From contig CANJUD010000017.1 of NCBI GenBank assembly GCA_947477885.1, positions 1 to 42,892 of the forward strand: a stretch of 42,892 nt of DNA. Direction: 5' to 3'. The translations under genes and the position numbers were made by a program. Positions 22,137-25,549 of the stretch are shown here, one piece after another. This DNA comes from Bacteroidota bacterium (GTDB lineage Bacteria > Bacteroidota > Bacteroidia > UKL13-3). The notes under the pieces are model-generated. The model saw nothing but the letters and a program-made list of their open reading frames with translations. It was not told where the DNA came from and ran no database searches. Numbering within the stretch: position 1 is the first letter of the stretch; every line of letters starts with the position of its first letter.

Positions 22137-23228
22137 ATGTTGCCGTTAAAAAAAGTAATCATATCAGGTGGAGGTACTGGCGGACATATATATCCAGCTG
22201 TCTCCATTGCACAAGAATTGAAGAAACAAATTCCAGATTTAGATATCTTATTTGTGGGAGCAAAAGGAAAAATGGAAATGGAAAAAGTTCCGAAAGCTGG
22301 ATTTGAAATTGAGGGATTATGGATTAGTGGATTGCAGAGAAAATTAACAATCGATAATTTATCTTTTCCATTTAAAGTAATGTCAAGTGTATATAAATCG
22401 AATATTATATTAAATAAATTTAAACCACAAATAGCAATTGGAGTTGGTGGATATGCAAGCGGACCTTTATTATATGCAGCAGGAATAAAAGGTATTCCTA
22501 CTTTAATACATGAACAAAATTCGTATGCAGGCCTTACCAATAAATGGTTGAGTAAAAGAGCCAATAAAATATGTGTGGCCTATGAGGGAATGGAAAAATA
22601 TTTTCCAGCGGAGAAGCTTGTATTGACGGGTAATCCCGTGAGACAGGATTTGCAACATATAACAGAAAAAAAGCAAGACGCTTCCAAGTTTTTCGGATTG
22701 AATTTGAATAAGAAAACTATATTATTTATTGGAGGAAGTTTGGGAGCAAGAACCTTAAATCAAACATTAATAAATGATGTTTCAAAATTATCTGATGCAG
22801 GATATCAAGTGATTTGGCAAACGGGAAAACACTATTATGATGATGTAAAGGATTTGCAAAATGATTCGGTAAGAATATATGATTTTATATATCAGATGGA
22901 TTTAGCATATTCCTTAGCTGATGTGATAGTATCACGAGCTGGAGCGAGCTCGATATCGGAGATTGCATTGGTTGGAAAGCCCTTGTTACTAGTGCCTTCG
23001 CCCAATGTGTCAGAGGATCATCAGACGAAAAATGCAATGGCATTGGTGAACAAAGATGCAGCGATGATGGTGAAAGATATAGATGCTAGAATTACTTTGA
23101 TAGATAGTTGTATCTCGTTGATGAATGATATATCATTACAGAATAAACTGTCTCAAAATATAAAACTATTTGCCACACCTGATGCAGCAAAAGATATAGT
23201 TTCAGAAATATTGAATTTGATAAAATGA
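22137..23228 (+). CDS. murG: Lipid II synthase MurG (GlcNAc transferase)
   Basis: 363 residues, the normal length. It transfers GlcNAc from UDP-GlcNAc to lipid I on the cytoplasmic membrane face. Seen: SGGGTGGHIYPAVSIA (the lipid-I-binding G-loop), IGVGGYASGPLL, HEQNSYAGLTNKWLS, the C-domain GGSLGARTLNQ, and SRAGASSISEIALVGKPLLL with the donor-sugar site. It starts 2 nt after ftsW and overlaps murC by 4 nt (ATGA). Confidence 0.97.
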   Translation: MLPLKKVIISGGGTGGHIYPAVSIAQELKKQIPDLDILFVGAKGKMEMEKVPKAGFEIEGLWISGLQRKLTIDNLSFPFKVMSSVYKSNIILNKFKPQIAIGVGGYASGPLLYAAGIKGIPTLIHEQNSYAGLTNKWLSKRANKICVAYEGMEKYFPAEKLVLTGNPVRQDLQHITEKKQDASKFFGLNLNKKTILFIGGSLGARTLNQTLINDVSKLSDAGYQVIWQTGKHYYDDVKDLQNDSVRIYDFIYQMDLAYSLADVIVSRAGASSISEIALVGKPLLLVPSPNVSEDHQTKNAMALVNKDAAMMVKDIDARITLIDSCISLMNDISLQNKLSQNIKLFATPDAAKDIVSEILNLIK

Positions 23229-24646
23229 ATTTAAAGAATATTAAATATATATATTTTTTGGGTGTAGGTGGCATTGGTATGAGTGCACTTGCAAGATTTT
23301 TTAATGGAACGAATATTCTTGTTTCTGGATATGATAAAACGGAAACACCTTTAACAACCGCATTGCAAAAAGAAGGAATTGATATTGTATTCGATGACCA
23401 AATAAAAACTATCAAAAAACAATTAAGCAATTTAGAAGAGCAATATATAAAATACTTTGGAAGAAAATTAAGTATCAGTAAAAACAATATATTGATAGTT
23501 CGTACACCCGCTGTGCCCAAGGAGCACAAAGCATTTAAGTGGTTAGGCAATAATGAATATAATATTATAAAACGTTCAGAATTATTGGGATTGATTAGTA
23601 AGAATTATTATACAATTGCCGTTGCGGGAACGCATGGCAAAACTACAACTTCAACAATGATAGCTCACATACTCAAAAATTCAGGAGTAGATGTGTTGGC
23701 ATTTTTGGGAGGGATTTCAACCAATTATCAATCGAACTTTATTTCCAATACTGGAGAATATCCTTTTGTAGTAGTTGAGGCAGATGAATTCGACCGTTCA
23801 TTTCTGCATTTGAACCCTGATGTATCTGTAATTACAGCAACTGATGCAGACCATCTGGATATATATGGAAATCATGCTGAGATGGAAAAAACATTTATAG
23901 CTTTTTCTAAGAAAACTAAAAAAGATGGTGTGTTGTTTGCCAAAAAAGAAATTCCAGAAATAGCACAATTTAGAAAGCCAAATTCTACCTATAGTATATA
24001 TGTAAATGCGGATATCAATTCAGAAAAAATAAAAGTGGTGAATGGTGATTATATATTTAGTTATAAAGATTCTGAAGTAAAGTGGAACAATATTATATGT
24101 GGTTTGCCAGGAACGCATAATGTGGAGAATGCTACAGTAGCAATAGCTGTATGCAAATATTTAGGGCTGACTGAAAAGCAAATCAAGAAAGGTTTGAAAA
24201 CATTTGCTGGCGTGAAAAGACGTTTTGAGTATATTATTAAAGGAAATAATTTTGTATATATTGATGATTATGCCCATCATCCAGAAGAATTAAAAGCTGC
24301 CATTAATTCGGCTAAAATGTTATACCCCAATAAAAAAATTACAGGAATATTTCAACCACATTTATATAGTCGCACAAGAGATTTTGCAAAAGGGTTTGCT
24401 GAGAGTTTGGATTTGTTGGATGAAGTATTATTGATGGATATATATCCTGCCAGAGAAAAGCCTATGAAAGGTGTAACTTCTCAGCTTGTTTTTGATATGA
24501 TGAAAAATAAAAATAAGCGGCTTGTTACTAAAGAAAATTTGATGAAGGAAATAAAAAAGTACAAGCCAGAAGTATTGATGACATTAGGTGCTGGAGATAT
24601 TGATACGTTTGTCGCTCCGCTCGAAAAATATTATAGCAAAGCATAA
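23225..24646 (+). CDS. murC: UDP-N-acetylmuramate:L-alanine ligase MurC
   Basis: 473 residues. It adds L-Ala to UDP-MurNAc. Seen: N-terminal FLGVGGIGMSALA, P-loop VAGTHGKTTTSTM, EADEFDRSFLHL, ATDADHLDIY, HNVENATVAIAV, and DDYAHHPEELKAA. The gene overlaps murG by 4 nt (ATGA), so translation is coupled. Directly after the stop comes the first copy of a 32-bp duplication that carries a decoy ftsQ start. Confidence 0.97.
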   Translation: MNLKNIKYIYFLGVGGIGMSALARFFNGTNILVSGYDKTETPLTTALQKEGIDIVFDDQIKTIKKQLSNLEEQYIKYFGRKLSISKNNILIVRTPAVPKEHKAFKWLGNNEYNIIKRSELLGLISKNYYTIAVAGTHGKTTTSTMIAHILKNSGVDVLAFLGGISTNYQSNFISNTGEYPFVVVEADEFDRSFLHLNPDVSVITATDADHLDIYGNHAEMEKTFIAFSKKTKKDGVLFAKKEIPEIAQFRKPNSTYSIYVNADINSEKIKVVNGDYIFSYKDSEVKWNNIICGLPGTHNVENATVAIAVCKYLGLTEKQIKKGLKTFAGVKRRFEYIIKGNNFVYIDDYAHHPEELKAAINSAKMLYPNKKITGIFQPHLYSRTRDFAKGFAESLDLLDEVLLMDIYPAREKPMKGVTSQLVFDMMKNKNKRLVTKENLMKEIKKYKPEVLMTLGAGDIDTFVAPLEKYYSKA

Positions 24647-24807
24647 ATTGAATAGGAAAATATATAAAATATCGAAATGGCCCCACCTAGCCTCCCCTGA
24701 GGGGGGGGACTTAAGCGGTGGAAAGAATTGAATTTTTAAAAGTATTTAAACAATATATAATAGATATCATAAAAAAAATTGAATAGAAAAATATATAAAA
24801 TATCGAA
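24645..24807 (+). repeat. 32-bp direct duplication around an inserted palindromic repeat (murC-ftsQ)
   Basis: 24645-24676 and 24776-24807 are identical at 31 of 32 positions. Both hold the murC-end/ftsQ-start sequence, including TTGAATAG. The 99 nt between contain a GC-rich palindromic element (about 24679-24721: CCACC at 24683-24687 against GGTGG at 24717-24721, and inside it CCTCCCC-TGA-GGGGGGGG) and AT-rich filler. The first copy opens a 27-codon frame that stops at 24729-24731; the second copy is the real ftsQ start. Confidence 0.9.
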
Positions 24808-25549
24808 TATAATACTTTGGTGTTTGTTGGTGGTGAACTTGATTGTATTTTTGAGTTTTACTGGAAGCGAGCAGCAACATATTGTTTGTGAGAATGTGAA
24901 TATAGAAATCGACAACCAAGCTAGTGGAAATTATTTTGTGGATAGGGAAGCGGTTGAAAATACCATTACGAACCATCTGCATATACTGTCAATAATAGGC
25001 ACAGCGGTAGAGGATTTGAACCCCTATGTGTTGGAGAATGAGTTGCTAAAAAATCCTTTTATCAAGAAGGTAAAAGTTTATAAAGATATTCCCGGAAATT
25101 TGAATATACAAATTGTTCAGAAACGTCCTTTGGCGAGAGTGTTTACTGATAAATTTGATTATTATATAGATGAGGATGGTGGGAAATTTACTTTTTGTAA
25201 TGGTTATACAGCCAGAGTTCCTGTTGTGAATGGCTACTTTTTCGAGAGCATGGTATATAAAGATTCGATGGTAACACCAGTGGGCAAAATGGTATATAAT
25301 TATCTGAAGGCCATTGATACCAATTCATATTACAAATCGCTCACAGAAGAAATATATATTAATGAAGAAGGTGATTTAACCATCGTTCCCAAGCTTGGTC
25401 CCAATGAGATAATCTTCGGTGACGACCAGGATTTGTCTGATAAACTGAACAAACTACATACTTTTTATTCTAAAGTTCTCAACACAGTAGGCTATAACCA
25501 TTATAAATCAATTAATTTGAAGTTCCATAATGAAGTGGTGTGCAAATAG
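24779..25549 (+). CDS. ftsQ: Cell division protein FtsQ/DivIB
   Basis: 256 residues: a short cytoplasmic N-terminus, a membrane segment at ~9-28 (NIILWCLLVVNLIVFLSF), then a POTRA-like domain (~35-115, with NPFIKKVKVYKDIPGNLNIQ and QKRPLARVF) and the beta domain. It links early and late divisome proteins through FtsL/FtsB. The start is TTG in ATTGAAT; no ATG exists before the membrane segment, so a non-ATG start is forced. A near-identical second copy of the first ten codons lies 131 bp upstream and is out of use. Confidence 0.92.
   Translation: MNRKIYKISNIILWCLLVVNLIVFLSFTGSEQQHIVCENVNIEIDNQASGNYFVDREAVENTITNHLHILSIIGTAVEDLNPYVLENELLKNPFIKKVKVYKDIPGNLNIQIVQKRPLARVFTDKFDYYIDEDGGKFTFCNGYTARVPVVNGYFFESMVYKDSMVTPVGKMVYNYLKAIDTNSYYKSLTEEIYINEEGDLTIVPKLGPNEIIFGDDQDLSDKLNKLHTFYSKVLNTVGYNHYKSINLKFHNEVVCK

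Follow-up and report, generated by a model that had tools for sequence, protein, structure and literature searches.

Duplication of the ftsQ start around a palindrome-bearing insert at the murC–ftsQ junction of one Bacteroidota species

In the window analysed here, a contig of 42,892 nucleotides from a Bacteroidota bacterium, the sequence that ends murC and begins ftsQ occurs twice, which raises the question of how an essential gene came to have its start duplicated around an insert. The preliminary description of this locus proposed that a palindromic repeat had landed in the start of ftsQ and had itself made a long target duplication that kept the gene alive. The geometry underlying that proposal is correct: positions 24645..24676 (+), which hold the murC stop and the ancestral ftsQ start, and positions 24776..24807 (+), which hold the functional ftsQ start, are identical at 31 of 32 positions with a start-to-start spacing of 131 bp. 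Across 200 dinucleotide shuffles of the region the highest 32-mer match was 23/32, so the duplicated pair is not a chance resemblance. An A-run precedes the downstream copy at its left edge, and the duplicated length is thus 30–32 bp. The copies differ in a single codon, AGG upstream (as in the relative G001) and the synonymous AGA downstream.

The gene murC (23225..24646, +) is intact at 473 amino acids, with a TAA stop whose last two bases open the upstream repeat, and a search of a collection of genome contigs gave one orthologue with 90% identity. Directly after this stop, the ancestral TTG at 24648 opens a relic reading frame of 27 codons (24648..24731, +) which runs through the palindrome to a TGA at 24729–24731, translates as LNRKIYKISKWPHLASPEGGDLSGGKN and leaves 47 nt to the true ftsQ start. 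The gene ftsQ itself (24779..25549, +; 256 amino acids) has the TTG of the downstream copy as its sole in-frame start candidate, and its orthologues within the genus are 89% and 85% identical. The frame translations therefore bear out the earlier reading that the upstream copy yields only 27 codons and that the downstream copy restores ftsQ.

Between the copies lies a 99-bp insert (24677..24775, no strand assigned) that is missing from both same-genus relatives. It contains the GC-rich nested palindrome that had been described between the copies (24681..24721, no strand assigned; consensus about CCCCACCYARCCTCCCCTGAGGGGAGG), a dispersed repeat that accounts for less than half of the insert, followed by 54 bp of AT-rich filler (24722..24775, no strand assigned). 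The two ends of the insert match at 4 of 20 bases and form no terminal inverted repeats, and no further copy of the whole 99-bp unit or of a 173-bp unit was found in the genome. Searches of the genome and of G001 and G002 for a source of the filler gave only weak AT-rich matches, not above the AT-rich background. A plasmid origin was considered and rejected, as the matches were weak and none covered 80% of the query. The filler can be aligned in register with the ftsQ start, as if it were a decayed third copy, but 132–153 of 1000 shuffles score equally and this identification was likewise rejected.

The junction was compared with that of two other genomes of the genus, G001 and G002. In each it is uninterrupted, without insert and without duplication; the sequence following the murC stop is CATTGAATAGGAAAATATATAAAATATCGAATATT in G001 and AAAAATATTAAAATAGAAGTTGAACAAAAGAATATATAAAATATCGAATATC in G002, and the distance from the murC stop to the TTG is 2 and 19 nt, respectively, compared with 132 nt here. 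The TTG start of ftsQ is kept in all three species. The G001 junction is also found in the MAG contig JANYDJ010000156.1 (L037), which is labelled Flavobacteriaceae. The comparison with relatives for which the preliminary description had called thus returns an empty site in both rather than a shared layout, and because both are empty the insertion and the duplication are derived in the species of the window: the insertion with duplication is specific to one Bacteroidota species. Measured against the split of the species, the event also looks young, since the two copies are alike at all but one base while the flanking genes differ by ∼16–18% between species. Across 27 further genomes of the family the murC–ftsQ distance is usually within a few tens of bases, with a range from a slight overlap to about 130 nt. 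Another long gap, of 130 bp, is present in G062 (L090), where no duplicated start and no obvious palindrome were seen.

Copies of the palindrome were located by pattern searches, and the copy list may be incomplete. The pattern CCTCCCCTNAGGGGAGG with up to three mismatches occurs at 20 places in the genome, compared with six for the reversed pattern; judged by reading the contexts, about 12–14 recognisable copies are present. The recurring part is only the palindrome of roughly 43 bp, never the 99-bp insert, and the copies are mostly intergenic and occasionally inside coding sequence. Close matches to a 20-nt motif were found in three of 64 genomes of the family and to a 27-nt motif in three of 395 genomes of the class; the palindrome is sparse across the class, yet not limited to the species of the window. 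The ileS gene of the same genome carries an in-frame copy that encodes the peptide VVLPSGEDIGGAAF (L043, ∼1501–1533; G000:C9:123876–123906), at the site of a loop whose length varies among the three species. A second palindrome, TTCGCCGCGGCGAA, adjoins two of the copies (L051, G000:C2:51118; L052, G000:C3:49336), which suggests that the paired palindromes are composite repeat units in this genome. No family matching the palindrome turned up in the literature on Bacteroidota palindromic repeats (open-licence papers).

If the palindrome made the duplication at ftsQ, other copies might carry flanking duplications as well. The best flanking direct repeat was scored at 18 copies (12 in the window genome and six in other genomes) and at 216 control positions. 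The ftsQ copy scores 28, whereas no control position exceeds 11. Scores at the remaining 17 copies (11 in the window genome and six related copies elsewhere) are 6–11, none above the control, in an assay that is blind to duplications shorter than ∼9 bp; the long direct repeat is thus unique to the ftsQ copy among those scored. For short target duplications at the other copies, comparison with the orthologous sites of G001 and G002 found the intergenic flanks too diverged to fix exact edges. A related palindrome, TTCTCCCTAAAAAAGGGAGGATAAAGGTGGG, lies at the same murC–ftsQ junction in G031 (genus g5; L091/L117) without a duplication, and palindromes may enter this or similar gene junctions recurrently. 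The preliminary description had itself named a lack of flanking duplications at other copies as evidence against its model, and this is the pattern found. What stands of that model is the insertion together with the duplication at the ftsQ start, supported by the empty relatives, and the conclusion that FtsQ can be started from the downstream copy alone; what the 17 copies and G031 do not support is the palindrome as a maker of long duplications.

The account that we favour, with confidence a little better than even, is that the murC–ftsQ junction underwent a ‘duplication with filler’, once and in this lineage only, which was kept since one copy starts an essential gene; both the repair-type origin and the single event are what we infer from the layout. 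A break or a stalled fork at the junction would have been followed by repair that copied 30–32 bp of the junction twice and captured 99 bp of other DNA between the copies, including one dispersed Bacteroidota palindromic repeat. The downstream copy would have restored the full ftsQ start (TTG, with an unchanged N-terminus) after a newly formed leader that is A-rich and unstructured, so that the line survived, and the upstream copy would have become the 27-codon relic right behind murC. Survival of the gene follows from the geometry, because the whole start is present in the downstream copy. Although the layout is compatible with one event and with two, the insert abuts the repeats exactly at either edge, which favours one. 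It is on this point that a two-step history fares less well, in which a 32-bp tandem duplication came first and the palindrome and AT-rich DNA later inserted between the two units without duplicating anything, since a later independent insertion would not have needed to coincide with the repeat edge at both of its ends. Such a history would suit the other palindrome copies without long flanking duplications and the palindrome without duplication in the corresponding junction of another genus, and it could draw on the in-register alignment of the filler with the ftsQ start, were that alignment significant; we regard it as rather unlikely.

The model of the preliminary description, in which a mobile palindromic element of ∼99 bp transposed into the ftsQ start, its transposase generating a target-site duplication of 32 bp, is in keeping with the direct repeats that bound the insert exactly and with the empty site in the relatives. 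It had been thought that no described element makes so long a target duplication; this is wrong, as IS1549 and IS1634 generate direct repeats of 8–514 bp (PMC2266710), although nothing ties the insert to either. The model is nevertheless distinctly improbable: a long duplication is found at none of the 17 other copies (those under ∼9 bp being below detection), the copies have only the ∼43-bp palindrome in common and not the 99-bp insert, and the insert lacks terminal inverted repeats. Nor does a palindrome lie beside any of the four Y1 (PF01797) transposase genes of the genome, which were rejected as its source, and enzymes of the IS200/IS605 type do not generate larger target duplications (PMC2817692). 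Three of the four genes encode small Y1 transposase-like proteins (L105, L107 and L108; G000:C8, C6 and C10), none with an adjoining palindrome; by their DHxH and YIxNQxxHH motifs they resemble subclass 1.2, which is listed without REP structures (PMC6006769). A mobile Bacteroidota repeat that sometimes makes target duplications of ∼30 bp by some undescribed mechanism, perhaps involving fold-back or replication, with only the ftsQ copy young enough to show it, strikes us as very unlikely.

Each of the known systems that the locus calls to mind matches it in part. REP elements usually number more than 100 copies per genome. Like REP/REPIN sequences with their RAYT (TnpA_REP), the palindrome is a short, GC-rich, imperfect and dispersed repeat that is mainly intergenic and mostly without long target duplications, but it has ∼12–14 rather than >100 copies, flanks no Y1 gene, sometimes lies in coding sequence and, at ftsQ, has a 32-bp duplication at both flanks. 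The elements of the IS1634 family (IS1634 and IS1549) share the long flanking direct repeats of variable length; they are, however, 1.5–2 kb long with a transposase, whereas the insert is 99 bp without inverted ends, and the flanking-repeat scores give no long duplication at several copies as an IS1634-type element would. For a MITE with a target duplication the empty site is present, and the terminal inverted repeats and the common ends with duplications (of ∼9 bp or more) are absent. Rickettsia palindromic elements are intragenic, and the in-frame palindrome of the same family in ileS is reminiscent of them, but the ftsQ insert stays outside the protein, and there it is the start that is duplicated. 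Short duplications with filler DNA arise by staggered-break fill-in or by template switching in repair. Such one-off local direct duplications on either side of a short mixed-origin insert resemble the ftsQ locus, where a one-off event and the lack of element ends both hold; the filler here differs from the usual in that it includes a recognisable dispersed palindrome, and the donor search gave no match beyond weak AT-rich ones.

Whatever its origin, the insert has probably uncoupled the translation of FtsQ from the termination of murC, as judged from the layout of starts and stops. Ribosomes finishing murC would come upon the relic start, could translate 27 residues through the hairpin and would stop 47 nt short of the ftsQ start, while FtsQ initiation would come from the almost unstructured A-rich leader, independent of murC termination. 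It is a further step to suppose that the insert is maintained as a leader ORF and hairpin that lower FtsQ or decouple it from murC, a functional reading that is compatible with the other accounts. The placement of the relic ORF, from right behind the murC stop to 47 nt before the real start, would suit it, as would a hairpin of −21.2 kcal mol−1 (24677–24722) next to a leader, from 24740 to the ftsQ start, of −1.2 kcal mol−1. The hairpin is, however, no more stable than shuffles of the same composition (z = −0.40), the insert contains no terminator-like site above shuffles and no excess of promoters, it is known from one species only and the murC–ftsQ spacing in other family members already spans a slight overlap to about 130 nt; we consider a maintained regulatory role highly doubtful.

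The ftsQ case alone reveals no new transposition mechanism; as a mutation it is neat but of an ordinary kind. It illustrates in nature how an essential gene can survive an insertion at its start when that start is duplicated, and how two closely spaced genes of the division and cell-wall cluster can become separated. The case further draws attention to little-described short GC-rich palindromes of the Bacteroidota, which enter essential-gene junctions and even coding sequence.
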